Below are positions 7,617-23,387 of a stretch of 23,387 bases of DNA, in pieces. This DNA is from a virus. The first letter of the stretch is position 1; every line of letters starts with the position of its first letter. The stretch is taken from positions 1 to 23,387 of the IMG/VR virus record IMGVR_UViG_3300023180_000409. The stretch is one strand, 5' to 3'. Both the position numbers and the translations under genes were made by a program. The notes beneath the pieces are model-generated. The model saw only the letters and a list, made by a program, of their open reading frames with translations. It was not told where the DNA came from and searched no databases.

Positions 7617-7645
7617 ATTATCTCTCGTTTCTGGGCAAAAAGAAA
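7617..7645 (-). promoter_or_regulatory. Promoter-like element before packaging operon
   Basis: Read on the minus strand, TTTCTT (7640-7645) is followed 17 bases later by GATAAT (7617-7622), within the sequence CAGAAACGAGAGATAAT. The same GAGAGATAAT core occurs at three other transcription-unit starts in this window (9260, 15017, 23265). Here it lies 45 bases before the putative small terminase gene and just after the terminator that closes the preceding unit. Unlike the other copies, it is not followed by the GTTGG leader hairpin. Confidence 0.55.
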
Positions 7646-7662
7646 CCCCTCCGAAGAGGGGT
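7634..7662 (-). terminator. Rho-independent terminator with TTCG tetraloop
   Basis: On the minus strand a perfect 7-bp stem, ACCCCTC / GAGGGGT (7645-7662), encloses a TTCG loop and is followed by TTTCTTTTTG. This is a textbook intrinsic terminator in the leftward direction. It closes the transcript carrying the small genes between 9213 and 7729. Its T-tract overlaps the TTTCTT of the promoter-like element for the packaging operon, so termination and restart are packed into about 45 bases. Confidence 0.85.
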
Positions 7663-7728
7663 CAAGTTCAGGGAGGATACAATCGTGAACAGATTGCACA
7701 ATAATTATTAACCAACATCCGATCAAAG

Positions 7729-8829: not shown

Positions 8830-9213
8830 TCAATCCGCATAGGTCACGATCTCCTTGAGTTCATCGACCAGCTTCCTGCCGTAATCGGTGAACAGTACGC
8901 CCCGGCCCCAGACCCAATGCTCTATGTCTTGGCTGTGGTAGAACGTCTCGTTCTGCGTCATCCAACGCAGAGCCGTCTGGCGGTCACCAGCACCTAGTTC
9001 GATGCAGGATTGAACCTCTTTCTCGAAGTCGATGAGGGACTGAGCTTCGAGTTCAGCCTCCTCGGCCTGACGACGGTCGAAAGCACGACCAATGGCATCC
9101 CAGATTTCCTGCTTCCGTTCCGGCGTTGCCGAATAGAACTCATGGTCGCGGGGGCGGAAGCCATAAGCGTCTTTGTGGAAGTCTGAGAACAGTTCATCAG
9201 AATAGGTATACAT
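8830..9213 (-). CDS. Conserved phage protein of unknown function, 127 aa, first gene of leftward unit
   Basis: The protein begins MYTYSDELFSDFHKDAYGFRP; the SDFHKDAYGFRPR, LGAGDRQTALRWM and ILFTDYGR-like (VLFTDYGRKLVDEL) segments form a pattern I recall from uncharacterised proteins of phages and plasmids. A charged helix with Glu/Ala repeats lies near residues 45-65. The start at 9213 is set by the extended SD TGAGAAAGGAAACC and by the conserved leader hairpin upstream; the frame is open to 9291, but that part covers the promoter and leader. It is the first gene transcribed leftward from the divergent region. Confidence 0.78.
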   Translation of the reverse strand: MYTYSDELFSDFHKDAYGFRPRDHEFYSATPERKQEIWDAIGRAFDRRQAEEAELEAQSLIDFEKEVQSCIELGAGDRQTALRWMTQNETFYHSQDIEHWVWGRGVLFTDYGRKLVDELKEIVTYAD

Positions 9214-9237
9214 CAGCTTGGTTTCCTTTCTCAGAGC

Positions 9238-9253
9238 GTTGGGCTCTCCCAAC
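9238..9253 (-). promoter_or_regulatory. Conserved leader hairpin upstream of SD (copy B)
   Basis: GTTGGG and CCCAAC form a perfect 6-bp stem around a 4-base loop, 7-8 bases downstream of the GATAAT box on the minus strand. It is followed by GCTCTGAGAAAGGAAACC and the ATG at 9213. The 24 bases from the CCAAC arm through the SD are almost the same as in the copy at 23277-23292, although the loop and inner pairs differ. Confidence 0.65.
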
Positions 9254-9259
9254 ACAGCT

Positions 9260-9288
9260 ATTATCTCTCTTCTCATATCAGGAGGCAA
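9260..9288 (-). promoter_or_regulatory. Promoter-like element for leftward unit (copy B)
   Basis: On the minus strand TTGCCT (9283-9288) is followed 17 bases later by GATAAT (9260-9265) inside AGAGAGATAATAGCTG. The core matches the plus-strand copy at 15013-15027 closely (GAGAGATAATAGCTGTGTTGG is shared). Transcription would start a few bases before the GTTGG leader hairpin. Confidence 0.6.
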
Positions 9289-11404: not shown

Positions 11405-11428
11405 GGGGAGGAGGGTTGACTCCTCCCC
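11405..11428 (+). terminator. Strong 9-bp hairpin between genes, attenuator or leader stem-loop
   Basis: GGGGAGGAG and CTCCTCCCC form a perfect GC-rich stem with a 6-base loop (GGTTGA). No long T-tract follows (TTCACCTTT), so full termination is doubtful. The SD AAGAAAGGAACTT of the primase gene starts 11 bases later, so it may lower read-through, protect the 3' end of the upstream message or shape the primase leader. Confidence 0.6.
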
Positions 11429-11451: not shown

Positions 11452-12981
11452 ATGTCCGACGTTAAAAGATTCATGAATTTGTTCAGAGGCTACGAACAAG
11501 CTCATGGCCAATACAGGGTCCAGAAAAAAGAAGCCGACGGAAAGATGTCTGGCCGCGCTGTGACTGTCAGCGAGCCTCCGACGGAAGAACATTTCTCGAT
11601 GCACTTGAAGGGTGGAGAGTTCATCCTCGGCATCATCATGCTTAAACAAGACAACAGCTGCAATTTTGGCGTCATCGATATTGACATTCGCGGCGAGGTC
11701 AAGCTCAAAGAATCTCTTGAGAGCCTAGAGAAAAAGATTCGCAACACTCCGCTCGTCATGTGCCGGAGCAAGTCTGGCGGAGCGCACCTCTATCTTTTCT
11801 GCGAGCCAGCCATCCCAGCCATCGACATGGTCAACAAACTGAACGAGTTCGCAGCAGGATTGGGATATGGCGGCGCAGAAATTTTCCCCAAGCAGATCTC
11901 TCGTGCCAATGAGATGGATCGCGGCAACTGGATAAATCTCTGCTACTGGGACGGAGACGACACAGAGCGTTTCGCAATCCATGATTCACGCAAGCTCAAC
12001 CTGTCAGAGTTCTTAGACCTCGCAGAGAAAAAGCGGACGACATACGAGGAGCTCGAGAAGATTCAGCCAGAGCTCGTCGATCATTTCAGCGATGGCCCTC
12101 CATGCCTTCAGCACATCATGACGATGGGCTTCCCAGAAGGCGGACGAAACATATCTTTGTTCAATGTTGGTGTTTATTATCGCAAGAAGAATCCTGACGA
12201 TTGGCAGGAAGACCTCATGCGTTTCAACTATGAGCAACTCGATGAGCCGCTGCCGTCCGGCGAGGTCAATGGCCTAATCAAATCAGTCAGCAAAAAAGAA
12301 TACGCCTACACTTGCAAGCAGTCGCCCATCTGCAACTATTGCGAGAAGTCAAAGTGCATGAAGCGAGAGTTTGGCATCGGTGGCTATGGCGGCGGCCAAG
12401 CGATCGAGATCAGCTCAATAACAAAATACGAAACCGAGAACAGAAGCTCTGTGCGCTGGTACATCGAGATCGGCGGAGAACGCATCGAGGTCACAACTCA
12501 GCAACTGTTGGATCAGCGCCAGCTGCAAAAGCTCTGTGTCGAAAAGCTCAACAAGTGTCCAGCCCAGATGCCGGGGCCAAAGTGGGAACAGGCCATAAAC
12601 AACCTGCTCAGCACTGTTGAAGTTATACAAGACCCAGACGACGCAAGCCCACAGGGTCAGTTTGAGAAGATGCTTGACAGCTTCTTGACTGGCAAGGTTC
12701 AGGCTCGTCACCGAGACGAGATAATGAATGCGAAGCCATGGCACGACCCAGACGAGGGTCGCGTTTTCTTCAGGTCGGAAGACCTTTTCATCTATCTGGA
12801 GGCGCGGAGGTTCCGCTACCAATCTCAGCATCAGGTTTGGTCTTGGCTGAGAAATCTTGGCGGCGACCGTAAGACCTTTCGTATAAAATCCAAACCAGTT
12901 AAAGTATGGTCTGTCCCGGCACCTCAGTTCTACGATGAAGAGGAACTAGAGGTTCCAAGCTCAGTGACAGAGGACTTCTGA
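11452..12981 (+). CDS. Primase of the archaeo-eukaryotic (AEP/PrimPol-like) superfamily, 509 aa
   Basis: This enzyme would make primers for phage DNA synthesis. The catalytic Asp pair is seen in FGVIDIDIRGE (D76, D78), and the second AEP motif as CRSKSGGAHLYLFCE (H112), followed by YGGAEIFPKQ and NWINLCYWDG, an arrangement typical of the TOTE/PrimPol-like branch. Residues about 230-285 (GGRNISLFNVGVYYRKKNPD) resemble the helical domain that follows AEP cores. A four-Cys cluster, C288, C294, C297, C302 (CKQSPICNYCEKSKC), probably binds zinc or an Fe-S cluster. The rest (about 310-509) is not recognised. SD AAGAAAGGAACTTC precedes the ATG. The family includes enzymes that are both primase and polymerase; which applies here is unknown. 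Confidence 0.85.
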   Translation: MSDVKRFMNLFRGYEQAHGQYRVQKKEADGKMSGRAVTVSEPPTEEHFSMHLKGGEFILGIIMLKQDNSCNFGVIDIDIRGEVKLKESLESLEKKIRNTPLVMCRSKSGGAHLYLFCEPAIPAIDMVNKLNEFAAGLGYGGAEIFPKQISRANEMDRGNWINLCYWDGDDTERFAIHDSRKLNLSEFLDLAEKKRTTYEELEKIQPELVDHFSDGPPCLQHIMTMGFPEGGRNISLFNVGVYYRKKNPDDWQEDLMRFNYEQLDEPLPSGEVNGLIKSVSKKEYAYTCKQSPICNYCEKSKCMKREFGIGGYGGGQAIEISSITKYETENRSSVRWYIEIGGERIEVTTQQLLDQRQLQKLCVEKLNKCPAQMPGPKWEQAINNLLSTVEVIQDPDDASPQGQFEKMLDSFLTGKVQARHRDEIMNAKPWHDPDEGRVFFRSEDLFIYLEARRFRYQSQHQVWSWLRNLGGDRKTFRIKSKPVKVWSVPAPQFYDEEELEVPSSVTEDF

Positions 12982-13109
12982 TGGAATCCGACAGCGAGTT
13001 AATTGAGTGTCCATGGTGCGGGCAGATGACTCGTGTTGTCGTGTATGAGTCTGGTAGGGTTGTTTGTGATTCATGCAAGAGGACATTGTATGAGGAAGAA
13101 GTTCAGTGA
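12981..13109 (+). CDS. Zinc-ribbon miniprotein, 42 aa
   Basis: Reading from the ATG that overlaps the primase stop (TGATG) gives MESDSELIECPWCGQMTRVV... with CPWC at residues 10-13 and CDSC at 29-32. Two CxxC knuckles 15 residues apart form a typical zinc ribbon. The stop lies inside the next gene (20-base overlap). It could bind DNA, the primase or the transcription machinery. An intact frame, the coupled start and the paired CxxC motifs together make it more than a chance ORF. Confidence 0.7.
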   Translation: MESDSELIECPWCGQMTRVVVYESGRVVCDSCKRTLYEEEVQ

Positions 13110-13284
13110 TTCAGACGCCAACGACATACGCTGGCTCTATTTCAAAGGGAAAAACAAACAAGGCAAGCGATTCACAATGAAAGAGCTTGCTGGAATTTAC
13201 AATTGCCACCCGAATACAATCCTGTTGGTGATAGACAGGAAAAGTGGTTACTCACATCTGCCTGTTGAACCGGAGGGAGATTGA
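13090..13284 (+). CDS. Small putative helix-turn-helix protein, 64 aa
   Basis: The product is MRKKFSDSDANDIRWLYFKG... with FTMKELAGIYNCHPNTILLV in the middle; the ELAxxYxxHPNTIxxVI pattern resembles the helix-turn-helix of small phage regulators and resolvase-type domains. The ATG at 13090 has AGAGGA upstream; an open frame reaches 13033, but that part lies over the zinc-ribbon gene. The stop overlaps the next start. It may be a local transcription regulator (inference). Confidence 0.65.
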   Translation: MRKKFSDSDANDIRWLYFKGKNKQGKRFTMKELAGIYNCHPNTILLVIDRKSGYSHLPVEPEGD

Positions 13285-13568
13285 TGTCCCCTGAAGAGTG
13301 GAATAAAATTAAGTTCGAAGAAGATGCCAAGCAGAGGCTTGAGGAAATGTCTTCTGGTTCTGTTTACGAACTTCTGTCAAAGGTTGATATGCTCCTGAGT
13401 GTTGGGGCATTTCCGCAGAACTCGTTTGCAGCAGTCGAAGAAGTGAAGCAGAAACTTAAAAAGATATTGCGCGGCAATATCGTTGAGAAAGGATCAAATG
13501 AGAAGAGTTCAAATAATCTTAGGTCCGCCCGGGACTGGGAAGACGACTACCCTCTTGAGGATTGTTGA
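13284..13568 (+). CDS. Small hypothetical protein overlapping the helicase gene, 94 aa
   Basis: The product begins MSPEEWNKIKFEEDAKQRLE and is charged and largely helical (AVEEVKQKLKKILRG). GGAGGGAG precedes the ATG by 4 bases. Its last 23 codons run through the helicase start (71-base overlap), giving a C-terminus EKSSNNLRSARDWEDDYPLEDC that is read in another frame of the Walker A region. The overlap region also carries the hairpin and SD for the helicase. No family is recognised. Confidence 0.62.
   Translation: MSPEEWNKIKFEEDAKQRLEEMSSGSVYELLSKVDMLLSVGAFPQNSFAAVEEVKQKLKKILRGNIVEKGSNEKSSNNLRSARDWEDDYPLEDC
13464..13480 (+). promoter_or_regulatory. Hairpin just upstream of helicase SD
   Basis: ATATTGC and GCAATAT form a perfect 7-bp stem with a GCG loop, followed after 4 bases by GAGAAAGGATCAA and the helicase ATG at 13498. 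It lies inside the preceding coding sequence. The layout (stem, short spacer, GAGAAAGGA) is the same as in the leader modules at 9238, 15029 and 23277, although the stem sequence is unrelated. Confidence 0.55.
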
Positions 13569-14958
13569 GGACGCACTCAGCAGAGGAGTCCCGCCAGAAA
13601 GGATCGCCTACCTAGCTTTTACGCGCAAGGCTGCATACGAAGCTCAAGAGCGTGCCATGCAGCAGTTTGGCTTTGACGAAAAGCGATTCCCATATTTCCG
13701 GACACTTCACTCCCTCGCATTCAGAGAGCTTGGGCTCCAAAGGGATGAGGTGATGACCAACACCCATTACCGCAAGTTGGGCAAAGCCCTTGGCGTAGAG
13801 TTCAAAGGGATCTACGACGAGGATCTTGGAATACACACAGGAGACGGATTGGGAGACAAGTGCTCGCGCATCGAGTCTCTTGCGAGGGTCGGCATGCGAT
13901 CTCTCGAGGAGCAATACAATCTGACGCCAGTCAATGACCTGACCCTGCATGCTGTGAAGCAATACGATGCGGCCATGCGTCGTTACAAAAAAGAAAACGG
14001 TCTGCTGGATTTTACAGACATGCTCGAGCGGTATGGCTCTGCGTTGCCAGTTGACATCTGCATCTTTGATGAGGCCCAAGATCTTAGTTCGCTTCAATAC
14101 AAAATGGCGATCGCTGCTGCGGCCAACGCAACCGAAGTTTATATAGCTGGCGACGACGACCAAGCGATCTTCGGATGGGCTGGTGCAGACGTTCAGAAGT
14201 TTTTAAATCTGAAGGGCGACCGCATGGTCCTGCCGCAGAGCTACCGAATACCGAGATCAGTTCACAAGCTCGCCCTCGACATCGTTGGCCGGATCAAGCA
14301 TCGCTATCAAAAGCCATGGTCTCCGAAGCTGGATGCTGGTTTGGTTGACTACGTTTCTGATGAACAACAGATCGACTTCTCTGGCGAAAAAAGTTGGTTG
14401 TGCATGAGTCGGTCAAAATATCTTCTGAACAGATTCCAACAGTCGGTCCGTCAGCAGGGTTATGCTTACACATACAATGGCAAGAGCTCTCTTGAGACTG
14501 AGGAGACTCGAGCCGTCATGAGCTGGGAGCGTTTGCGCAAGGGTGGATCGCTCACCATGTTTGAGGCGAAGAACCTTATTCAGTTTTTCAATTTCAATCA
14601 CACTCTGACCAAGCTCGAAAAATATCGCGTTACAGATCTGGGTCTGCCGGAAGATGCACTGCAACACGACTGGATGACGATGCTGCGCGGCATCGCCGCC
14701 GACGAGCGCGAGTATCTTAGGTCTTGTCTGCGCAATGGAGAAAAGTTTTCTGAAAAGCCACGCATCTCCATCTCGACCATCCACCAGTCCAAAGGTGGCG
14801 AGGCAGACAATGTCGCCCTGATCACCGACATGGGCCGTCTGTCTTGGGAGAACAGCCACACCGACGAGGAGAATCGAGTCTGGTACGTTGCTGTCACTCG
14901 AGCACGAGAAAGTCTGTCGATTGTCAGACCGCGAGGTTTGAGATATTATGCAATATGA
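13498..14958 (+). CDS. UvrD/PcrA-type superfamily 1A DNA helicase, 486 aa
   Basis: The protein would unwind DNA 3' to 5' at the phage fork or during repair. Helicase motifs in order: Walker A GPPGTGKT (9-16), Ia AFTRKAA (40-46), DFTDML (171-176), Walker B DEAQD (191-195), motif III AGDDDQAIFGWAGA (217-230), motif IV QSYRIPRSV (247-255), motif V STIHQSKGGEADNV (426-439) and motif VI VAVTRARE (464-471). At 486 aa it is much shorter than UvrD (about 720), with reduced 1B and 2B subdomains, closer to compact phage helicases such as Dda in size. The ATG at 13498 is set by GAGAAAGGATCAA; a TTG at 13485-region start lies within that SD. It is the last gene before the promoter module at 14983-15064. 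Confidence 0.92.
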   Translation: MRRVQIILGPPGTGKTTTLLRIVEDALSRGVPPERIAYLAFTRKAAYEAQERAMQQFGFDEKRFPYFRTLHSLAFRELGLQRDEVMTNTHYRKLGKALGVEFKGIYDEDLGIHTGDGLGDKCSRIESLARVGMRSLEEQYNLTPVNDLTLHAVKQYDAAMRRYKKENGLLDFTDMLERYGSALPVDICIFDEAQDLSSLQYKMAIAAAANATEVYIAGDDDQAIFGWAGADVQKFLNLKGDRMVLPQSYRIPRSVHKLALDIVGRIKHRYQKPWSPKLDAGLVDYVSDEQQIDFSGEKSWLCMSRSKYLLNRFQQSVRQQGYAYTYNGKSSLETEETRAVMSWERLRKGGSLTMFEAKNLIQFFNFNHTLTKLEKYRVTDLGLPEDALQHDWMTMLRGIAADEREYLRSCLRNGEKFSEKPRISISTIHQSKGGEADNVALITDMGRLSWENSHTDEENRVWYVAVTRARESLSIVRPRGLRYYAI

Positions 14959-14982
14959 GACTAACTCCTTGATAACGCTGAT

Positions 14983-15004
14983 AAAGAAAATGCTTTTCTT
15001 TTTT
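14983..15004 (+). terminator. A/T-rich hairpin with T-tract after helicase gene
   Basis: AAAGAAAA and TTTTCTTT form a perfect 8-bp stem with loop TGC, followed by TTT. The stem is weak because it is nearly all A/T, so termination would be leaky. The bases before it, CTAACTCCTTGATAA (14960-14975), recur almost exactly after the polymerase gene (23190-23204). Its right arm overlaps the TTTCTT of the promoter-like element. Confidence 0.5.
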
Positions 15005-15022
15005 AGCAGAAAGAGAGATAAT
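14995..15022 (+). promoter_or_regulatory. Promoter-like element (copy C)
   Basis: TTTCTT (14995-15000), a 16-base spacer and GATAAT (15017-15022) lie within CAGAAAGAGAGATAATAGC. The same core occurs at 7617, 9260 and 23265. It would start a transcript carrying the genes from 15065 on. Confidence 0.58.
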
Positions 15023-15028
15023 AGCTGT

Positions 15029-15047
15029 GTTGGCGATGGTCGCCAAC
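15029..15047 (+). promoter_or_regulatory. Conserved leader hairpin upstream of SD (copy C)
   Basis: GTTGGCGA and TCGCCAAC form a perfect 8-bp stem with a TGG loop. TTGAGAAAGGAAATCAG and the ATG at 15065 follow. Compared with the copies at 9238 and 23277 the outer GTTGG/CCAAC pairs are kept while the inner pairs change on both arms, as expected for a structured RNA. Confidence 0.65.
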
Positions 15048-15064
15048 TTGAGAAAGGAAATCAG

Positions 15065-15259
15065 ATGAGCAAGAGCTCCCCCGAGAAGATGGAACTTTAC
15101 AAGACTGCTTACTCCGAAGAGCACGGCACGTTCGTCGGCATCAAGCAGGTATACAAAATCACGACCGACGATTGGCTGGTTGTGGCGCATGTTGCGGGCG
15201 AACCGCAGCATCTCCTCCGGAGCTTCCGCTCTTCTGAACTTACTCAGTACGTCCTCTAA
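15065..15259 (+). CDS. Small hypothetical protein, 64 aa
   Basis: The product reads MSKSSPEKMELYKTAYSEEH..., with a beta-rich middle (GTFVGIKQVYKITTDDWLVV). The start is fixed by the conserved leader and SD directly upstream; the open frame that reaches back to 14948 covers the promoter region and is not coding. First gene of the unit driven by promoter copy C. No family recognised. Confidence 0.68.
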   Translation: MSKSSPEKMELYKTAYSEEHGTFVGIKQVYKITTDDWLVVAHVAGEPQHLLRSFRSSELTQYVL

Positions 15260-15276
15260 TCAGAAAGGAATAAACC

Positions 15277-15825
15277 ATGTACGCACTCGACCGCAAAACT
15301 CTCGACCTCCGCTCTTTCGAAAATGGCAAGGCTGCTCGCAATGCTGGCAATGGCTTCGTCCTATTCGAAGACGCAGAAGAGCTTTTGAACAACCCAAACA
15401 TAAAGAGCGAGGCTTGCTCTTTCTTCGTAGAACTCTACAACAAGCATGCTGACAAGAGTGTGACAAAGTTCGAGAGCCGCAATGTCGCGGCCAGCCGGAT
15501 TGTCAAGCTCGTCTCGACCATGCCCGTTGAGAAATCTCTTCACAACAAGACAGGAGAAAATGAAGTGACTGAAGAAGTTATTGAGGTGAATGTCAAGACC
15601 ACAGCCCCGACCAAGCAGACTCGCAAGTCTGGCTTTGCAGGAAAAATGGTTCAGGCGACCTGCCAGACCAATCCTCGTCGCGAGGCCACTCATGGCTTCC
15701 ATTCGATGCAGGTCTTGATTGATGCTGGCGAGCCGATCAGCTATGAGAAGTATATTGCTGCTGGCGGCCGACGCAACGACCTTGTGTGGGATATCGGAAA
15801 AGGCAACGCCAAGGTCATCGACTGA
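15277..15825 (+). CDS. Conserved phage protein of unknown function, 182 aa
   Basis: There appear to be two parts: residues 1-80 (MYALDRKTLDLRSFENGKAA ... KFESRNVAASRIVKLVSTM) and a C-terminal domain from about residue 115 (KSGFAGKMVQATCQTNPRRE, THGFHSMQVLIDAGEPISYE, KYIAAGGRRNDLVWDIGKG), linked by a Thr/Val/Glu-rich stretch. The NPRRE..HG..S...L and GGRRNDLxWD patterns look conserved and I recall similar segments in other phages, without a known role. A DNA-binding role is possible. SD CAGAAAGGAATAAACC precedes the ATG. A strong hairpin follows at 15828. Confidence 0.72.
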   Translation: MYALDRKTLDLRSFENGKAARNAGNGFVLFEDAEELLNNPNIKSEACSFFVELYNKHADKSVTKFESRNVAASRIVKLVSTMPVEKSLHNKTGENEVTEEVIEVNVKTTAPTKQTRKSGFAGKMVQATCQTNPRREATHGFHSMQVLIDAGEPISYEKYIAAGGRRNDLVWDIGKGNAKVID

Positions 15826-15827
15826 TC

Positions 15828-15848
15828 GGAGGGGGATCTTCCCCCTCC
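15828..15848 (+). terminator. Strong 9-bp hairpin between genes
   Basis: GGAGGGGGA and TCCCCCTCC form a perfect stem with a 3-base TCT loop, starting 3 bases after the stop of the 182-aa gene. Only ACCCTCTTTC follows, so it is not a clean intrinsic terminator; the next SD CAGAAAGGAAAGC begins 11 bases after it. Its placement matches the hairpin at 11405-11428: right after a gene and right before an SD. Confidence 0.6.
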
Positions 15849-15873
15849 ACCCTCTTTCAGAAAGGAAAGCAAA

Positions 15874-16098
15874 ATGAAGTTCCACAGATTCAAACATGAT
15901 GATGGCCGATACATAAACTTGGGGAACTGGCAGTCTTCTGTCAAGTTGGCCAAGGACGAGGCCAAGGATCTTGGACACTGGTCTCGCAGCGAGACTAAGA
16001 TCCAAACCCTGACGATCAATCAGCAAGACTCTTATCAGGCGATGATGAATCTGCTGAACCAAGACTCACGCGTGTTGGGGCAGATCCATGAGAGCTAA
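15874..16098 (+). CDS. Small hypothetical protein, 74 aa
   Basis: The product is MKFHRFKHDDGRYINLGNWQ... and ends NLLNQDSRVLGQIHES. It is hydrophilic, with likely strands at the start and helices in the middle (AKDEAKDLGHW). SD CAGAAAGGAAAGC is at a good distance from the ATG. Its end overlaps the lipoprotein gene by 11 bases. No family recognised. Confidence 0.65.
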   Translation: MKFHRFKHDDGRYINLGNWQSSVKLAKDEAKDLGHWSRSETKIQTLTINQQDSYQAMMNLLNQDSRVLGQIHES

Positions 16099-16336
16099 AA
16101 TTATATTCGCAGCCCTGTCACTTTCCGCATGCGCATCGAATGCAGAGCCAGAGGTCTCTCTCAAAACCGAAAAAGAGATCCACAGCATGAACCGGCACGA
16201 GGTGATCAATGCGATCACCGACTGCCAGTCTGCTGGCTTGAGGCCTGTTATGATTTATGGTAGAGTCCGAGTTGCTGGCCGGCCATCACCAATTGTCCTT
16301 GATGTCACTTGCGCGCCACCCAAGGCACAGTTATGA
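16088..16336 (+). CDS. Putative lipoprotein, 82 aa
   Basis: A short basic start (MRAK), a hydrophobic stretch (IIFAALSLSA) and a lipobox LSAC with Cys at residue 15 form a signal-peptidase-II signal, so the mature protein (about 68 aa) should be lipid-anchored. The mature part has two further cysteines, ITDCQSAGLRPVMIY and VLDVTCAP, that could form a disulphide in the periplasm. SD is weak (GGGGCAGATCC). Small lipoproteins of phages can act in lysis (Rz1-like) or block superinfection; there is no Rz partner visible and the gene sits among replication genes, so exclusion or an envelope function seems at least as likely (inference). Confidence 0.72.
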   Translation: MRAKIIFAALSLSACASNAEPEVSLKTEKEIHSMNRHEVINAITDCQSAGLRPVMIYGRVRVAGRPSPIVLDVTCAPPKAQL

Positions 16337-16470
16337 TCAAGCTCGGCATCGGCATAGGGATTGGCGTTGCGATAATGCAGTTTCATCTCGCACCTTTCAT
16401 CGCAGAACTTTTTGTTTCGTCTGGTGCTCGTGATCAGATTGTGCAATTTTTACAGGAGATCGAACATTGA
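16333..16470 (+). CDS. Small membrane protein, 45 aa
   Basis: Starting at the ATG that overlaps the lipoprotein stop (ATGA), the product is MIKLGIGIGIGVAIMQFHLA... ending QIVQFLQEIEH. Residues 4-32 are hydrophobic with a GIGIGIG start, enough for one membrane segment, followed by an amphipathic helix. It is too short for most ORF searches, but its start and stop both overlap flanking genes. Pairing with a lipoprotein suggests a joint envelope function. Confidence 0.62.
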   Translation: MIKLGIGIGIGVAIMQFHLAPFIAELFVSSGARDQIVQFLQEIEH

Positions 16471-17417
16471 TTATTCTAGGCGCTGGCATGGCTGGCTTGT
16501 TGTCAGCGAACATACTCAGGAGTTTCCAGCCAAAGGTATGGGAGGCACAAGACTCTCTCCCGAACAACCACGAGGCTCTGCTGCGCTTCCGGACTGACAA
16601 GGTTGGCTCTGCTTGTGCCATACCTTTCAAAAAGGTGAAAGTGAACAAGGCCATAAAGTATGACGGTAAAATTACGACTCAGCCCGATCTCTTCCTGAGC
16701 AATTTGTACTCTCAGAAGGTGACTGGTGGCGTCTGGTCTCGGTCAATCAATGATCTGAGTGCAGCAGAGCGTTACATCGCGCCACTGAACCTGATCAGCC
16801 AGATGGCTGTCAACTGTAACATCTCATATGGCAAGGTCGCTGATGAGTTTTTCCTAGATGAGCATGCAGCGTTTGACAAGCATGTACCAATTATCTCGAC
16901 AATACCGATGCCTGTGCTGATGAAGTTGGTTGGCTGGGAAGATGTGCCAGACTTTGGTGCACGGCGGATCTGGACACAGAGGGCAATCATTGATGAGCCG
17001 CACTGCGACGTTTATCAAACCATTTACTACCCAGACCATTTCGTCCCGCAGTATCGTGTGTCGGTTGTCGGCAATGTCGTGATCTCAGAGCTCGCATCAG
17101 AACCACACGTCGATCCCGGGAAATCAATCATGGAGATCTTGCGGGAAGATTTCGGCATCAATGCACGGAGGCTCGTCGGTATGAAAACGAGCTCTCAAAA
17201 ATACGGTAAGATCACGCCAATAGATGAAAAGATCAGGCAGGAGTTCATCTTCGAGATGACGACGAGGTACAATCTTTATTCCGTCGGACGCTTTGCGACA
17301 TGGCGCCAGCTTTTGCTTGATGATGTTGTCGGAGACATCCAGAAGATTGAGCAGTTCATCAGAGGAAACTCTGACTACCACCGGAAAATGAAGTCACAGA
17401 AAGGAGCAGACCAGTGA
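16467..17417 (+). CDS. FAD-dependent oxidoreductase-like protein, 316 aa
   Basis: The N-terminus MIILGAGMAGLLSANIL is a dinucleotide-binding Rossmann motif GxGxxG (G5, G7, G10) with an acidic residue at the expected strand end (E26 in KVWEAQ), typical for FAD ribose binding. A C-terminal segment NLYSVGRFATWRQLLLDDVV resembles the second FAD contact region of glutathione-reductase-2 type flavoproteins. The substrate domain in between (NNHEALLRFRTDKVG, IPFKKVKVNKAI) is not recognised. Translation starts at TTG 16467 with GGAG 8 bases upstream, overlapping the previous stop. The gene is coupled to thyX (GTGA overlap), so it may act with it: supplying reduced flavin or modifying a pyrimidine base. 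That link is inference. Confidence 0.75.
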   Translation: MIILGAGMAGLLSANILRSFQPKVWEAQDSLPNNHEALLRFRTDKVGSACAIPFKKVKVNKAIKYDGKITTQPDLFLSNLYSQKVTGGVWSRSINDLSAAERYIAPLNLISQMAVNCNISYGKVADEFFLDEHAAFDKHVPIISTIPMPVLMKLVGWEDVPDFGARRIWTQRAIIDEPHCDVYQTIYYPDHFVPQYRVSVVGNVVISELASEPHVDPGKSIMEILREDFGINARRLVGMKTSSQKYGKITPIDEKIRQEFIFEMTTRYNLYSVGRFATWRQLLLDDVVGDIQKIEQFIRGNSDYHRKMKSQKGADQ

Positions 17418-18058
17418 AAGTTAAACTTGTTGAGTGCACACCTAACGCTAAAGATCTTTTGATCTTCACCAAAAACACGCGCCTGTTGAATGTTGAGGAT
17501 GCGTACGACGAAATCAAAGACTGGCCCGAAGACAAGAAGCAGGAAGAGCTAGACTACATGCTTCAGACGATCAAGTCGAGTTGGGAGTTCATTGATTACG
17601 TTTTCGAGATCCGTGATGTGACACGAGCATTCACCCACCAGTTTGTCCGGACGCGCACAGGCTCGTACGCCCAGCAGTCTCAGCGCACAGTGGACATGGA
17701 GGGTTTTGGCTACTACACCCCGCCAAGGATCAAAGAGAACCTCATCGCTCGTGCGCTTTATGATCAGTGCATGACTATGATCAATTCTTATTATCAGGAT
17801 CTGCGAGAGATCGTCCCGGCTGAAGATGCACGTGGCGTCCTGCCAACAAACATCCACACGAACATCGTCGCAAAGTTCAACCTTCGGACTCTGCACGAGA
17901 CTGCTAAGTCCCGCCTGTCGCCGAGGGCGCAGGGTGAATACCAGCAGGTGTTCAAGTTGATGGTTGACGAGGTTGTTAAAGTTCACCCATGGGCAGAGCC
18001 CTTCCTAACGCCGACGGAGTGGTCCGCACCCTCCATGGCAAAACCTTTGAACAAGTGA
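17414..18058 (+). CDS. thyX: Flavin-dependent thymidylate synthase ThyX family, 214 aa
   Basis: ThyX makes dTMP from dUMP using FAD and methylene-tetrahydrofolate. The signature normally RHRxxSxxxxSxR reads RTRTGSYAQQSQR at residues 79-91, with FTHQFV before it as in the family; C-terminal NLRTLHETAKSRLSPRAQGE matches the dUMP/FAD contact region (NLR...R...AQ.E). The central His of RHR is replaced by Thr (T80), a notable change since that His contacts the flavin in studied enzymes. The GTG start at 17414 has AAGGAG 7 bases upstream and overlaps the preceding stop. Plain dTMP synthesis is most likely; a variant reaction such as hydroxymethylation cannot be excluded. Confidence 0.9.
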   Translation: MKVKLVECTPNAKDLLIFTKNTRLLNVEDAYDEIKDWPEDKKQEELDYMLQTIKSSWEFIDYVFEIRDVTRAFTHQFVRTRTGSYAQQSQRTVDMEGFGYYTPPRIKENLIARALYDQCMTMINSYYQDLREIVPAEDARGVLPTNIHTNIVAKFNLRTLHETAKSRLSPRAQGEYQQVFKLMVDEVVKVHPWAEPFLTPTEWSAPSMAKPLNK

Positions 18059-18065
18059 GGATAAA

Positions 18066-18260
18066 ATGAGAAAGAACTGGACAGACGAGGAAGTTCTCAA
18101 CATCATTAAGATGAAGAGCAAAATGCCGGTCAGAGAGGTCGCAAAAGAAACTGGCCTGTCGCAAACCCAGATTCACTATGCCTTGTACAACTACAAGTTC
18201 AAGAATGCCCCTGCTCCGGAGAAGAGCTTTTGGGATCGCATCAAAGGGCTTTTCTCCTGA
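18066..18260 (+). CDS. Small helix-turn-helix protein, 64 aa
   Basis: The product reads MRKNWTDEEVLNIIKMKSKM... with VREVAKETGLSQTQIHYALY, a clear helix-turn-helix (AKETGLSQTQIHYAL). The C-terminal part SFWDRIKGLFS is amphipathic. GAGGATAAA precedes the ATG. It is likely a DNA-binding regulator of the phage; the target is unknown. Together with the 64-aa protein at 13090 it makes two tiny HTH proteins in this arm. Confidence 0.7.
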   Translation: MRKNWTDEEVLNIIKMKSKMPVREVAKETGLSQTQIHYALYNYKFKNAPAPEKSFWDRIKGLFS

Positions 18261-18302
18261 GCCAAGATGGAGTAAACTTATCGTCTTAAGAAAGGAAACG
18301 AT

Positions 18303-18827
18303 ATGAATATCTTTTATGTTGACCGCTGCCCCATAGCAGCTGCCAGATCTCTTTGCGACAAGCACGTCGTAAAGATGATCCTTGAGACTGCACAACTGCT
18401 CAGCACTGCGCATCGTGAGCTTGACGGTGACGACTATGCAGATGCGGCCGAGTTGTACAAGTCAACTCACAAGAACCATCCCAGCGCAGTTTGGGTCCGC
18501 TCCAGCACAGCCAACTACACTTGGGCTTACCGTCATTTGGAGTCCCTGTGCAAAGAATATACAAAGCGTTACGGCAAGCACCACAAGACCGAGCGTCTGC
18601 TTGACGGACTCAAGCCTCGCCCAGTCAACATTCCGCCGGACCGGGGCATGTCTTATATAGAGACTCAGCCACCTCAGTGTATGCCAGAAGAGTACAAGTG
18701 CAACCCTAACACTGCGTCACACGACGATTGTGTCCGAGCCTATCGTGCATATTACTGCGGCGACAAGATGACCCAAGCTTGGGCAAAATACGATCACACG
18801 GAGGCACCGTCTTGGATAAGCGCGTAA
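18303..18827 (+). CDS. Conserved phage protein of unknown function, 174 aa
   Basis: The pattern MNIFYVDRCPIAAARSLCDK, HVVKMILETAQLLSTAHRE, NHPSAVWVRSSTANYTWAYR, then MPEEYK and AYRAYYCGDKMTQAWAKYDH with PSWI near the end is one I recognise from uncharacterised proteins of T4-like, cyanophage and other marine phages. Conserved His, Lys, Trp and Tyr residues suggest an enzyme or nucleic-acid binding protein; the general arrangement is faintly reminiscent of pyrimidine-dimer glycosylases, but I would not assign that. SD AAGAAAGGAAACG precedes the ATG. The end overlaps the phosphatase gene by 16 bases. Confidence 0.75.
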   Translation: MNIFYVDRCPIAAARSLCDKHVVKMILETAQLLSTAHRELDGDDYADAAELYKSTHKNHPSAVWVRSSTANYTWAYRHLESLCKEYTKRYGKHHKTERLLDGLKPRPVNIPPDRGMSYIETQPPQCMPEEYKCNPNTASHDDCVRAYRAYYCGDKMTQAWAKYDHTEAPSWISA

Positions 18828-19255
18828 TCATTTCTGATCTTGACGGAACTTTGTCTGATCCCTCTGCCAGACTCCATCTTTACAAAGAGCGGAAGTATGC
18901 AGAGTTCAACAAGGCTGGCAAAAACGACAAGCCAATTGAAAATGTCTGCAACATCTTGCGCAATTTGAAAGACTCTGAGACAGATGTCATCATCTGCACT
19001 GCTCGTGACGAGTCTTGCAGAAAAGACACACAGGAGTGGCTCAAGCTCAATGATGTACCTTACGACATGTTGGTGATGCGCTGGAAAGACGACCAACGCC
19101 ACGACATTGATGTCAAACGAGACATGTTCAACAAGCTCCTTGAGATTTATGATTTCAAGCAGTTCTGGTTCGTTCTTGAGGATCGCAACGTCTGCGTTGA
19201 CATGTGGCGCGGGGAAGGCCTGAGTTGTTTGCAAGTCGCACCGGGGGACTATTAA
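18812..19255 (+). CDS. HAD-superfamily phosphatase, T4 Pnkp 3'-phosphatase-like, 147 aa
   Basis: HAD motif I is IISDLDGTLSD (nucleophile D9, general acid D11), motif II IICTARDES, motif III around KRDMFNKLL, and motif IV VLEDRNVCVDMW. The C-terminal VCVDMWRGEGLSCLQVAPGDY closely resembles the end of the T4 polynucleotide kinase 3'-phosphatase (MWR..G..C.QVA.GD). This suggests removal of 3'-phosphates from nucleic acid or nucleotides. There is no N-terminal kinase domain, unlike T4 Pnkp, and no RNA ligase in the window. Start: TTG at 18812 with GGAGG 7 bases upstream; upstream in-frame codons lie within the previous gene. Confidence 0.82.
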   Translation: MDKRVIISDLDGTLSDPSARLHLYKERKYAEFNKAGKNDKPIENVCNILRNLKDSETDVIICTARDESCRKDTQEWLKLNDVPYDMLVMRWKDDQRHDIDVKRDMFNKLLEIYDFKQFWFVLEDRNVCVDMWRGEGLSCLQVAPGDY

Positions 19256-19509
19256 TGGAAATCAGAATAATCGGTAACGACATCGAGATCGATAGTGAAA
19301 AGGTCGCACGAATATTCGACATCAGGCCGACACTCAGGACTCGTCTTGAGGAGGCTATCGAAATTGTGAATGAGGCACAAGACAAAAACCCAGACGAGGA
19401 ATATCAGACGGGCTTTGGCGAAGGAAAGAGCGAAGGCTATAGCGAAGGCTATGAGGAAGGCTATGAGGAAGGATACGACGATGGACTCAGATCAAAAGAC
19501 TCCGATTGA
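19255..19509 (+). CDS. Small protein with Glu-Gly-Tyr repeats, 84 aa
   Basis: The N-terminal half (MEIRIIGNDIEIDSEKVARI ... LEEAIEIVNEAQ) looks folded. Residues 55-77 are a repeat of four-residue units of the form xEGY (GFGEGKSEGYSEGYEEGYEE...). Such GYEEGY repeats occur in some phage and flagellar proteins as flexible acidic tails; a function is not established for this one. The start overlaps the upstream stop (TAATG) with GGGGGA upstream. The repeat-encoding DNA also contains the SD and start codon of the next gene. Confidence 0.68.
   Translation: MEIRIIGNDIEIDSEKVARIFDIRPTLRTRLEEAIEIVNEAQDKNPDEEYQTGFGEGKSEGYSEGYEEGYEEGYDDGLRSKDSD
19417..19485 (+). repeat. 12-bp tandem repeat encoding xEGY units
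   Basis: About five imperfect 12-base units of the type GCGAAGGCTATA / GAGGAAGGCTAT run in frame in the 84-aa gene. The unit contains GAAGG or GGAAGG, and the last copies (GAGGAAGGA at 19465-19473) serve as SD for the ATG at 19481. Repeat-number change would alter both the tail of the 84-aa protein and the number of SD-like sites before the next gene. Confidence 0.7.
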
Positions 19510-19777
19510 ATGCATGGAGGAGGCGCTCAAGACTTTCCGAGAGCGCAACACTTCATATGGCGACAACTATCATCGCCACGGGAAAGTTATGATGGCTCTG
19601 TTTCCGGAGGGTGTTGATCTCCGGACAGAGAAAGAGTGGAACAAGTTCGGCATCGTCAACATGATCGTCGCCAAGCTCACCCGTTATTCAATGAACTGGC
19701 CAGCAGGTCATCAGGACTCTGTTCACGACCTAGGGGTTTATGCGTTCATGCTTGAGTCTCTGCATAGCGAGGATTGA
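19481..19777 (+). CDS. MazG-like / nucleotide-metabolism protein of all-alpha type, 98 aa
   Basis: The pattern FRERNTSYGDNYHRHGKVMM, WNKFGIVNMIVAKLTRYSMN and GHQDSVHDLGVYAFMLESL matches small phage proteins related to all-alpha nucleotide pyrophosphatases and nucleotide-modification-associated domains (RxxxYG...N, K..R, D...DL..Y). The conserved Asp/Glu and Lys residues fit metal and nucleotide binding. It may trim the nucleotide pool during phage replication, in line with the neighbouring thyX and phosphatase genes. The ATG at 19481 has AAGGA 7 bases upstream; the frame open further upstream is read across the repeat of the previous gene. Activity not proven. Confidence 0.68.
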   Translation: MDSDQKTPIECMEEALKTFRERNTSYGDNYHRHGKVMMALFPEGVDLRTEKEWNKFGIVNMIVAKLTRYSMNWPAGHQDSVHDLGVYAFMLESLHSED

Positions 19778-19778
19778 T

Positions 19779-20312
19779 ATGATTGTTTTCGATGTTGAGA
19801 CGACAGGGCTGCCAAAGGCTGAAGGTTCGGACTTGGACATCCAGCCAAAGATCATCGAGTTCGGTGCTCTGAAGCTGGACGATGATCTGAAAGAGATTGG
19901 CAAGCTGGAGTTCTTTTGCAATCCGGGGCATCCGCTTGACCCTATGATCACGAAGATCACCGGCATAACCGACGACATGCTCAAAGACGAGAAGCCATTC
20001 GTTGCTTATTACGGGGAGCTCTGCGATTTCTTCCTTGGCGAGCGAGAGATGGTTGCGCACAACTTGCCATTCGACCGGAAGATACTTAGATTTGAGCTTG
20101 AGCGACTTGACAAGGTCACGAAGTTCCCTTGGCCCCGAGATCATATCTGCACAGTTGAGGTCGGCCAGAGGGTCTGGGGCAAAATGCGAAAGCTCGGGGA
20201 TATACACGAAGAGCTGTTCGGGGCTAAGATAGAAGGCGCACACAGATCAATCAACGACGTTGAAGCAACAGTCCGCATCGTTGAGTGGTATAAGAAGGAG
20301 GGCCACCTGTAA
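19779..20312 (+). CDS. DnaQ-like 3'-5' exonuclease (DEDDh), 177 aa
   Basis: All exonuclease motifs are present: Exo I FDVETTGLP (D5, E7), Exo II VAHNLPFDRKIL (D99), Exo III AHRSINDVEAT (H155, D160). The length equals the catalytic core of the E. coli epsilon subunit. It lies directly before the family C polymerase gene, so it most likely proofreads for that polymerase, as epsilon does for alpha. The ATG at 19779 is preceded by GAGGATTGAT, 1 base after the previous stop; upstream in-frame codons lie in the MazG-like gene. Confidence 0.9.
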   Translation: MIVFDVETTGLPKAEGSDLDIQPKIIEFGALKLDDDLKEIGKLEFFCNPGHPLDPMITKITGITDDMLKDEKPFVAYYGELCDFFLGEREMVAHNLPFDRKILRFELERLDKVTKFPWPRDHICTVEVGQRVWGKMRKLGDIHEELFGAKIEGAHRSINDVEATVRIVEWYKKEGHL

Positions 20313-20380
20313 TGGATCCGATAATGATAATGATCGTCGGGCACCTGATCCTTGGCGTCATTTATATAGCGACGAGCTGA
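20312..20380 (+). CDS. Possible 22-aa hydrophobic peptide between exonuclease and polymerase
   Basis: ATG at 20312 overlaps the exonuclease stop (TAATG) and its own stop overlaps the polymerase ATG (TGATG). The product is MDPIMIMIVGHLILGVIYIA followed by TS, almost entirely hydrophobic. AAGGAGG lies 10 bases upstream. The polymerase ATG has only a weak SD of its own, so translation of this mini-ORF may deliver ribosomes to it. It could be a real membrane peptide, a coupling device, or both. Confidence 0.5.
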   Translation: MDPIMIMIVGHLILGVIYIATS

Positions 20381-23193
20381 TGCTGAACATAAAGGTCAGG
20401 ACGGAATACTCTTTCCGCAAGGCATTTGGCCCTGTCGATTCGGTTGTTGGTGTTTGCCAAGGGGATGCTGTCGGGGTGTGCGACACAGGCACATGGGGCC
20501 ATGTGTCGTTCAGCAAAGCATGCAAAGCTGCCGGCAAAAAGGCTGTCCTAGGGGTCGAAATTCCTGTTGTTGAAGATGCGACAGACCGCAGTCGCCAGCC
20601 AGCCAACGCGATGTCCTTCATCGCAAAGAACAATGATGGTCTTGAAGAGATATACAACCTCGTCACCAAGAGCACAGACAAGGACCATTTCTATTATCAT
20701 CCCCGACTGAGTTATTCTGATCTGTTTGATATCTCAGAAAACGTCATCATCCTCTCTGGAACTCACCCAATATGGGGAATGCTTCCATTAGCCAGAAAAC
20801 ACGATCTTTACATTGAGCTCAATCCCATGAGCTCACGCAAGGCTCTTGAGTTTGCAGAAAGCAAAGGCTTCAAGACAGTCGCAACGAGCGACAACTATTA
20901 TCCACTCGTGACAGACAAGAAAGCCTATGAGGTGCTGGTTGGGCGAGACCGCACAGACCGCACGACAGCCATGCACATACTCAACGAGTGGGAATGGAAA
21001 GACGCAGTGCCTTGGGCACCACAGTCTGCGATTGACAACACCTATGAGATCGCCGGATTGTGCGAGACTGATCTGCCTGTTGCCAAGATGGTTTCCTTCA
21101 ACAGCAAGAAAACTCTTGAGGAGCTTTGTCGGGAAGGTGCAGCCAAGTTGGGCATAGATCTGTCTGACGAAGTTTACGCTGCTCGCCTTGAGCGAGAGCT
21201 AAATATGATCGCAGAGAAGAAGTTCGAAGATTACTTCTTCGTGATCGCCGACATGATTTCTTACGCTAAGCAACACATGCTAGTTGGCCCTGCCCGTGGT
21301 TCGTCTGCTGGCTCGCTGGTGTGCTACTTGACTGGCATAACGGACATCGACCCGATCAAGCACGACCTGCTGTTCGAACGGTTCATCGATGTGACCCGCG
21401 AAGACCTCCCGGACATCGACATCGACTTCCAAGACGATCGGCGAGAGATGGTGTTTGAATACCTCCGGCAAAAGTACGGAGCGGAGAAGGTCGCTCACCT
21501 CGGAACTGTGTCGCGCTACAAAGCCAAGAGCACGATCTCAGAAGTTGCCAAGGGGCTCGGGATTCCTGCTTGGGAGGTCAACGACCTCAAAGGTGCAATC
21601 ATCGAGCGGAGCACAGGCGACTCTCGTGCAGCGTTTTGCATCCTTGATACGTTCAACGAGCTTGATGTTGGCCGAGAGGTGCTTAGGAAATACCCACAGA
21701 TGAAGGTCGCGGCCAGCATGGAGAACCATGCGCGGCACAGCGGTGTTCATGCCGCAGGGATCATCGTCACAGAGCAGCCTGTCCGGAAATATTGTTCAGT
21801 CAGCGAACAGAGCGGTGCAGCTCAGATAGATAAAAAGGATGCTGAGGATCTGAATCTTCTGAAGATTGATGCCCTTGGTTTGCGAACGCTGTCTGTGTTG
21901 CAAGACGTTCTTGATCAGGTTGGCTGGACGAGGGACCAGCTCGTCAATCATGACCTAGAAGACGAGGCTGCGTTCGCGATATTGAACGACGAGAAGTACG
22001 CCGGAATATTCCAGTTTGAAGGCTATGCGCTGCAATCTGTGACTAGGCAGATGAAAGTTCATAAGTTTGAAGACATTGCGGCGATCACAGCTCTGGCTCG
22101 CCCCGGACCGCTAAACTCCGGCGGCACAACGGAATACATAAAGCGTCATACCGGCGCAGCTCCTGTTGAGTATCTCCACCCCCTAACAGAAGGCATCACA
22201 AAGGTCACCAACGGCGTCGTCGTTTATCAAGAGCAGGTCATGACGATCGGGAGGGATGTCGGTAAACTCTCTTGGGAAGATGTTTCGTCTCTGCGCAAGG
22301 CGATGAGCAAGTCTCTGGGCAAAGAGTTCTTTGACACCTACTTTGAAAAGTTTAAGGTTGGTGCTGAGGAGAACGGAATTGATGAGGAAAAAGCACGATA
22401 CATCTGGGACCACATCAACACGATGGGCAGTTGGGCATTCAATCGCTCTCACGCCATTGCTTATGGGCTTGTTTCTTATTGGTGCTGTGTTCTTAAGTCT
22501 CGTTTTCCTCTGGAGTTTGCTGCAGCTTGTTTGCGCAACGTCAAAGACGACGAGCAAGCAGTTAGGTTGTTGCGTGAGGTCGTGCGCGAAGGTCTTTCGT
22601 ATAAACCGTTCGACAAATTCAAATCGGAGATAAACTGGTCGGTTCAAGACGGAGAGCTGATTGGTGGCTTGATGGGCATCAAAGGCATCGGGCCAAAGAT
22701 GGCGCAGGATATAATCGAGCGTAGGAAGATGAGCCAGCCTCTGACACCGAGGCAAGAGAAACTTCTCGGAGAAGGCCAGACGCCATATGACGACATCTTT
22801 GAGTGCGAGAGGCGTTTCGGTCACATAAAGGCAGACCCAGCCGCGCACAACATCGTGACACCGATCATAGACATCGTTGACCTAGATGCTGACAGTCCCG
22901 GCCAGTTTGTCTTCTTCGGGAAGCTCAAGGAGAAGAACCTGCGAGACATGAACGAGACAGTCAACTTGGCCAAGCGTGGAGGCCGACGAGTTGAGAACAA
23001 CAACCTGTGGCTCAATGTCACGTTTGAGGACGACACAGGCCCAATCATCTGCACCATTGATCGGTTCAAATATTCGCGTATGGGCAAGCCCATCGTCGAG
23101 GACGGAAGGCTGGGTGATTGGTACCTCATAAAAGGCACTCTCAGGCAGGGATTCAGGAAGATTTATGTGGACAAATGGCGTAAGCTAGACTAA
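20380..23193 (+). CDS. dnaE: Family C DNA polymerase, DnaE-like (Pol III alpha), 937 aa
   Basis: This is the replicative polymerase. Palm motifs: GPARGSSAGSLVCYLTGITD (303-322), catalytic PDIDIDF (344-350) and LKIDALGLRTLSVL with the third Asp at D497. Also present are QFEGYALQSVTRQM, ARPGPLNSGG (573-582), VVVYQEQVMTIG, SLRKAMSK and the WAFNRSHAIAYGLVSYWCC region. The C-terminus (about 840-937, VFFGKLKEK ... YLIKGTLRQGF) looks like an OB fold. The PHP domain is degenerate: HSDYS of bacterial enzymes is RTEYS (7-11) and the DHG motif is DTG (35-37), so metal-dependent PHP activity is probably lost. At 937 aa it is shorter than E. coli DnaE (1160). Frame is open to 20260, but the ATG at 20380 begins the family's LNIKVRTEYS strand. 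Confidence 0.93.
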   Translation: MLNIKVRTEYSFRKAFGPVDSVVGVCQGDAVGVCDTGTWGHVSFSKACKAAGKKAVLGVEIPVVEDATDRSRQPANAMSFIAKNNDGLEEIYNLVTKSTDKDHFYYHPRLSYSDLFDISENVIILSGTHPIWGMLPLARKHDLYIELNPMSSRKALEFAESKGFKTVATSDNYYPLVTDKKAYEVLVGRDRTDRTTAMHILNEWEWKDAVPWAPQSAIDNTYEIAGLCETDLPVAKMVSFNSKKTLEELCREGAAKLGIDLSDEVYAARLERELNMIAEKKFEDYFFVIADMISYAKQHMLVGPARGSSAGSLVCYLTGITDIDPIKHDLLFERFIDVTREDLPDIDIDFQDDRREMVFEYLRQKYGAEKVAHLGTVSRYKAKSTISEVAKGLGIPAWEVNDLKGAIIERSTGDSRAAFCILDTFNELDVGREVLRKYPQMKVAASMENHARHSGVHAAGIIVTEQPVRKYCSVSEQSGAAQIDKKDAEDLNLLKIDALGLRTLSVLQDVLDQVGWTRDQLVNHDLEDEAAFAILNDEKYAGIFQFEGYALQSVTRQMKVHKFEDIAAITALARPGPLNSGGTTEYIKRHTGAAPVEYLHPLTEGITKVTNGVVVYQEQVMTIGRDVGKLSWEDVSSLRKAMSKSLGKEFFDTYFEKFKVGAEENGIDEEKARYIWDHINTMGSWAFNRSHAIAYGLVSYWCCVLKSRFPLEFAAACLRNVKDDEQAVRLLREVVREGLSYKPFDKFKSEINWSVQDGELIGGLMGIKGIGPKMAQDIIERRKMSQPLTPRQEKLLGEGQTPYDDIFECERRFGHIKADPAAHNIVTPIIDIVDLDADSPGQFVFFGKLKEKNLRDMNETVNLAKRGGRRVENNNLWLNVTFEDDTGPIICTIDRFKYSRMGKPIVEDGRLGDWYLIKGTLRQGFRKIYVDKWRKLD

Positions 23194-23241: not shown

Positions 23242-23270
23242 TTTCTTTCTGGCCCAGAAAGAGAGATAAT
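23242..23270 (+). promoter_or_regulatory. Promoter-like element (copy D)
   Basis: TTTCTT (23242-23247), a 17-base spacer and GATAAT (23265-23270) lie within CCCAGAAAGAGAGATAATC. This is the same core as in copies at 7617, 9260 and 15017; the CCCAGAAA part is shared with the copy at 7617. Confidence 0.58.
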
Positions 23271-23276
23271 CTTTGT

Positions 23277-23292
23277 GTTGGGACGATCCAAC
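23277..23292 (+). promoter_or_regulatory. Conserved leader hairpin upstream of SD (copy D)
   Basis: GTTGG and CCAAC pair, with a further G-T wobble inside (GTTGGG / TCCAAC) and an ACGA loop. GCTCTGAGAAAGGAAACCAG and the ATG at 23314 follow, nearly the same as the sequence after the minus-strand copy at 9238-9253. Confidence 0.62.
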
Positions 23293-23313
23293 GCTCTGAG
23301 AAAGGAAACCAGA

Positions 23314-23387
23314 ATGAACATCCTCGAACAAATCGAAACCCGCTTCACCGAGACCAAGAGCGCCTGCAAGCTCTACAAGACTGTCGC
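23314..23387 (+). CDS. Partial CDS at window end, unknown protein
   Basis: ATG at 23314 follows the conserved leader and SD and opens a frame MNILEQIETRFTETKSACKL... that continues past the window. The charged helical start gives no family. It is the first gene of the unit driven by promoter copy D. Confidence 0.65.
   Translation, partial: MNILEQIETRFTETKSACKLYKTV

Follow-up and report, generated by a model that had tools for sequence, protein, structure and literature searches.

Organization of the repeated leader units

The DNA analyzed here, referred to as the window, is a 23,387-nucleotide stretch of an uncultured virus in IMG/VR (IMGVR_UViG_3300023180_000409). Portal and terminase genes lie on its minus strand; the replication genes, on the plus strand, encode a primase of the AEP type, a helicase of the UvrD type, ThyX, and a DnaE-type polymerase. 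The large terminase is 77-78% identical to those of roseophages CRP-901 and CRP-902, phages of the CHAB-I-5 Roseobacter lineage (PMC10149686), and the nearest polymerase is that of Cronobacter phage Ss1 (44.5%); from these similarities the host is likely a member of the Rhodobacterales. The genome is mosaic, with structural genes (3176-7091) close to those of CRP-901/902 and replication genes (11452-23193) of another kind, and CRP-901/902 lack this type of replication gene (DnaE-type polymerase, AEP-TOTE-like primase).

Three sites in the window (copies A, B, and C, Table 1) share one order of parts, just as the sequence-only reading had described: a sigma70-like promoter with a 17-nt spacer, a hairpin from the predicted +1, the ribosome binding site (RBS) AGAAAGGA, and a start codon. 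In each copy the hairpin begins 6 nt past the -10 box, which is the expected +1 position. The GAGATAATNNNTGTGTTGG pattern matches exactly at three places in the 23,387-base record; the next best match has two mismatches, and the reversed pattern, used as a control, is absent. A near relative (L017) has TTGCTT as its -35 box where copy B has TTTCTT. An Rfam scan of the window returned no family at the curated gathering score, and copy B had only weak chance matches when compared with named phages by DNA blast.

Table 1. Promoters, leader hairpins, RBSs, and genes of the three copies, and the fourth promoter of the class
Feature	Coordinates	Strand	Description
Copy A promoter	14994..15022	+	-35 TTTTCT 14994-14999, 17-nt spacer, -10 GATAAT 15017-15022
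Copy A leader hairpin	15029..15047	+	GUUGGCGA-UGG-UCGCCAAC, from predicted +1; 8 bp, 3-nt loop
Copy A RBS and gene	15051..15259	+	RBS 15051-15058; ATG 15065; 64 aa; no Pfam match
Copy B promoter	23242..23270	+	-35 TTTCTT 23242-23247, 17-nt spacer, -10 GATAAT 23265-23270; family promoter profile
Copy B leader hairpin	23277..23292	+	GUUGG-GACGAU-CCAAC; predicted +1 at 23277; outward stem extension possible to 23275-23294
Copy B RBS AGAAAGGA	23299..23306	+	ATG at 23314
Copy B gene	ATG 23314	+	91 aa; truncated by window end, complete in L106
Copy C promoter	9260..9288	-	-35 TTGCCT 9288-9283, 17-nt spacer, -10 GATAAT 9265-9260
Copy C leader hairpin	9236..9255	-	GUGUUGGG-AGAG-CCCAACGC; predicted +1 at 9253-9255
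Copy C RBS and gene	8830..9231	-	RBS 9231-9224; gene 9213-8830, 127 aa, phrog_21968 (unknown function)
Fourth promoter of the class, no leader hairpin	7617..7663	-	Terminator 7663-7644 fused to -35 TTTCTT 7645-7640; -10 GATAAT 7622-7617; precedes small terminase gene

The fourth promoter has the same GAGAGATAAT as the three hairpin copies. A strong terminator, CCCCTCTTCGGAGGGG, leads directly into its -35 box to give a fused terminator-promoter. AGAAAGGA is a common RBS of this phage and stands at several genes with neither promoter nor leader hairpin, so that (T)TGAGAAAGGAAA, taken earlier for part of a special module, is instead an RBS motif used genome-wide.

A dyad in the promoter spacer, CTTTCTGG-C-CCAGAAAG, spans 23242-23264, occurs in the same region of other copies, and is partly conserved in some relatives (CTTTCTCTGG...AGAAA); it is a possible operator. 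The terminator-like site at these coordinates is this dyad and is distinct from the leader hairpin, which bears on a reading of the hairpin as an attenuator, that is, a terminator immediately after the start acting with or without a phage antiterminator. Some relatives do have four to six T residues after the stem (L131, at 4782 and 12932), but a T run is not general and the window copies lack one (GCTCTGAG, TTGAG), and we regard attenuation as very improbable.

Recurrence of the cassette in related phages

IMG/VR contains 285 DnaE relatives, the best 80 of which are 73-100% identical, and most of these 80 carry the same promoter, leader, and (T)TGAGAAAGGAAA RBS directly after the dnaE stop codon. 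The suggestion of further copies outside the window is supported among relatives, where the same cassette occurs many times. It is absent from the named relatives nearest by polymerase (Cronobacter phage Ss1 and Vibrio phage VA-RY-3) and by terminase (CRP-901 and CRP-902). Broader pattern scans of IMG/VR for a hairpin plus RBS returned mostly chance matches within coding sequence, the real ones being close relatives only.

We cataloged 130 loci of relatives with 88 unique leaders, admitting only RBSs close to AGAAAGGA, so cassettes with other RBSs are missed. Leader lengths are bimodal, 48 of the unique leaders being 8-17 nt and 34 being 26-35 nt long. The short leaders have no hairpin, and 31 of the 34 long ones contain a clear hairpin of 4-12 bp at the same position and with differing sequence, three doubtful long leaders having been excluded by eye. 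A later set added three more hairpins, together with two 26-nt leaders that have none. Many promoters of this class lack a hairpin, making it an optional part of the cassette. Stems are generally simple, but in L150 at 5934, L163 at 10501, and L176 at 7713 the hairpin is of a subtype in which an internal loop, GA/GA in L150, separates two short stems (UCGGAAGGGAGAGGCCCUGACGG).

The family promoter consensus is TT[GT][AC]CT, 17 nt, [GT]ATA[AC]T, with the -35 and -10 boxes and near-17-nt spacer of a sigma70-type promoter, although this fit is partly built in because the selection step favored boxes resembling TTGACA and TATAAT. A promoter for a phage-specific RNA polymerase was rejected, as the constant 17-nt spacing of the -35 and -10 boxes matches the sigma70 type. 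In these genomes, an uncultured marine phage family reuses a small promoter cassette ahead of exchangeable genes, and in many of its cassettes a hairpin starts at the predicted first base of the message.

Evidence that the hairpin is selected as RNA

Each of the three window leaders folds better than its dinucleotide shuffles (p = 0.005, 0.005, and 0.009), and their summed energy of -34.3, compared with a shuffled mean of -15.3, was matched by none of 5000 shuffles. Among the relatives, the 28 nt 5' of the RBS have a mean energy of -8.1 kcal/mol in long-class leaders, compared with -1.2 in short-class leaders and -2.7 at promoterless RBS sites. Twelve independent cluster representatives give z = -7.7 against dinucleotide shuffles.

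RNAalifold on a MAFFT alignment of the leaders found no consensus pairs, since the lineages vary in stem position and loop length and their stems are out of register; a half-swap test therefore took the place of a covariance model. Swapping leader 3' halves between lineages abolishes folding (z = -6.1, with none of 20,000 permutations as good), and the result was repeated on a separately chosen non-redundant set (z = -7.1, 0/50,000); shuffling the 3' half only gives z = -7.7. The half-swap result is alignment-free covariation of the two arms. Changes from paired to paired are also seen directly where relatives are in register: G-C to A-U, G-C to G-U, and U-G to U-A between L109 and L112, U-G to U-A between L116 and L138, and G-C to G-U between copy C and L009. 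Together, the loss of folding on half-swapping and these paired-to-paired changes show that the hairpin is selected as an RNA structure, for its base pairing and not its sequence, and here, as in 5'-terminal stabilizing stem-loops, pairing matters and sequence does not.

The sequence-only reading had proposed a leader RNA structure over and above a promoter, and the shuffles and half-swaps both uphold this, with arm-to-arm covariation far above background in the permutation tests. Its picture of a constant outer stem with compensating inner pairs fares less evenly: compensation is convincing among the relatives, but the window gives one G-C/G-U change only between aligned copies, because copy A (15029-15047) is out of register with the other two.

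That the inverted repeat just past the -10 box could be a repressor site, selected as DNA and not as RNA, is suggested by its overlap with the start site and by the GTTGG...CCAAC half-sites, which are constant in the window. However, half-site spacing across the window copies is 6 and 9 nt, relatives keep the pairing and not the sequence, and the stems contain 33 G-U pairs against 2 A-C mismatches, matching the expectation for sense RNA; a DNA operator is accordingly a highly unlikely account of the repeat.

Position of the hairpin in the transcript

Leader position 7, the expected +1, is the peak of stem starts, and it is a purine in 30 of the 31 hairpin leaders versus 28 of the 48 hairpin-less ones, an excess that supports the assumed start site. 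Measured from this predicted +1, the stem starts at the 5' end or a few nucleotides into the leader: 16 of the 31 hairpin leaders have no unpaired 5' nucleotides and 21 have two or fewer. About seven of the 31 begin three nucleotides past +1, and in some leaders 3-6 nucleotides at the 5' end are unpaired; such hairpins would protect the end less well.

The other end of the stem lies 0-8 nt, mostly 3-5 nt, upstream of AGAAAGGA. This close spacing, and the occurrence of hairpins before AGAAAGGA within operons too, would suit an element of translation that keeps the RBS open, or acts as a structure for standby or spacing, and has no part in mRNA decay. Predicted RBS openness speaks against it, being 0.69 with the hairpin, 0.72 when the hairpin is trimmed, and 0.73 in hairpin-less leaders, so that freeing of the RBS by the hairpin is not supported, and we consider a purely translational role unlikely.

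Exchange of cassettes and downstream genes

Several pairs of relatives share the region upstream of the RBS and encode unrelated proteins downstream of it. The upstream regions are identical at 98 of 98 positions in L173 and L175, at 95 of 98 in L106, which carries copy B of the window, and L108. L170 and L171, in which the leader hardly folds, are a further pair of this kind. Conversely, related genes lie behind different leaders: the 91-aa gene of copy B is 68% identical to a gene that follows another hairpin in L175, and a ~90% identical gene in L113, L148, and L187 follows two different hairpins and one hairpin-less leader. This uncoupling of cassette and gene favors a modular unit bordered by the RBS over control tied to a particular gene. 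In the sequences compared, the hairpin is not a gene-specific control element, and the downstream gene is exchanged at the RBS.

The same observations weigh on the suggestion that a phage regulator of translation binds the hairpin. In such an RNA operator a phage protein would repress or activate translation of the downstream genes, much as T4 gp43 acts on its own leader, where it binds a hairpin (PMC3014915), and the fixed position of the hairpin between start site and RBS is compatible with this. But loops (3-8 nt) and stems vary freely between and within phages, a given gene can follow different hairpins or no hairpin at all, and unrelated genes can share one cassette. With neither loops nor stems conserved, and with hairpin and gene freely recombined, binding by a regulator is quite unlikely.

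Proposed function and comparison with known systems

Both RppH and RNase E require a single-stranded 5' end, and structure there stabilizes mRNA (reviewed in PMC3997798). Rhodobacter sphaeroides has RNase E, RppH, and the 5'-to-3' RNase J (PMC8625941). We propose, with moderate confidence, that the hairpin is a 5'-terminal stem-loop that blocks 5'-end-dependent decay within a shuffled promoter cassette, its stabilizing effect being what we infer from computed structure and position. The cassette consists of a host-type sigma70 promoter, an optional stem-loop at the predicted transcription start, and the usual AGAAAGGA RBS. With the first mRNA nucleotides tied up in the stem-loop, removal of the 5' pyrophosphate by RppH would be hindered, as would 5'-end-dependent attack by RNase E (and by RNase J, if the host has it); the protected message would live longer and yield more protein, and messages from hairpin-less cassettes would decay sooner. 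Small accessory genes could be swapped behind the cassette by recombination within the promoter and RBS sequences that the cassettes have in common. Stabilization of phage mRNA, one of the roles offered earlier for the leader, is thus the function best supported, as judged from structure. A processing site, also offered, is possible but not supported at the transcript start.

More tentatively, and with some doubt, the hairpin may set mRNA lifetime in a portable way that does not depend on the gene, and this marine clade may toggle it at equivalent promoters, with the RBS ends of the cassette as seams for swapping accessory genes. If so, a newly acquired gene would come with a ready-made expression level. 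The phages offer a natural matched series of promoters, some bearing a 5' stem-loop and others lacking it, within a single group and on the same genes, in which it is testable whether phages set mRNA lifetime by 5' structure and how accessory genes are swapped with expression retained. In uncultured marine phages, the cassette would also aid the prediction of promoters and gene starts.

Stabilizing 5' stem-loops are known from bacterial mRNAs such as E. coli ompA and papA (Emory 1992, Bouvet and Belasco 1992, Bricker and Belasco 1999; cited in PMC3997798). The phage hairpins resemble these in their place at or near the predicted 5' end and ahead of an open RBS, with pairing selected over sequence; they differ in being much shorter (about 20 nt), in being repeated and exchangeable within a promoter cassette, and in that stabilization is here a prediction. 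In phage T4, a 5' CUUCGG hairpin in the gene 32 leader is credited with mRNA stability (Gorski 1985, Loayza 1991; cited in PMC8948821), and RNase E processing generates its stable end (PMC3014915). This too is a phage leader hairpin, and relatives of the window phage use CUUCGG-loop hairpins before intra-operon RBSs, whereas the cassette hairpin sits at the predicted primary start and has loops of several types. By analogy, the cassette likely works in the manner of an ompA- or T4 gene 32-type leader; its structure and modularity are strongly supported, and the stabilizing role is likely.

The phiEco32-like phage 7-11 has a leader hairpin before its late sigma gene, proposed to raise expression (PMC8948821). 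It is likewise a phage hairpin ahead of a gene, but it is single, is a processing or stalling site, and has a conserved GTTCGG loop, unlike the repeated promoter-linked cassette.

A closer parallel in organization is with the PeSL cassettes of T4-type phages, in which an early-type promoter and stem-loop are repeated ahead of exchangeable small genes (Arbiol 2010, Comeau 2014; cited in PMC4503421), and which are titled composite promoter-terminator motifs in the work cited there. As far as that account describes them, the two share repeated promoter and stem-loop units bordering exchanged genes; in the phages studied here this shows as identical upstream regions with unrelated downstream proteins. 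In the cassette, by contrast, the stem-loop is downstream of the promoter and inside the transcript, the window copies lack a T tract and do not have the form of terminators, and a terminator is fused to a promoter only at the fourth promoter (7617-7663). Nor is this a T4-type phage, its portal, terminase, and polymerase being related to those of roseophage-like and Ss1-like phages. On the description of PeSLs available through PMC4503421, the cassette is PeSL-like in organization and is not a PeSL.

Some unrelated phages share letters of the start region. TGAGATAATACTTGT[AG]TTG occurs in six copies in about 5 kb of one such genome (G012; L019, ~77.5-82.7 kb), similar start letters are present in unrelated phages at L001, L011, L014, L022, and L030, and TGTGTTGGTTGGGGAGAGTCCCC with a hairpin near +1 is found in phages other than G012. 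This likeness looks convergent.

Hairpins also stand before AGAAAGGA within operons. GC-rich hairpins of about -20 kcal/mol lie at window positions 11405-11428 and 15828-15848, ~10 nt 5' of AGAAAGGA, and at neither is there a recognized promoter or a T tract; similar hairpins lie a few nucleotides 5' of AGAAAGGA in relatives, some of them with CUUCGG loops (L112, L179, and L218). By analogy with T4 gene 32, these intra-operon hairpins may protect ends made by processing.
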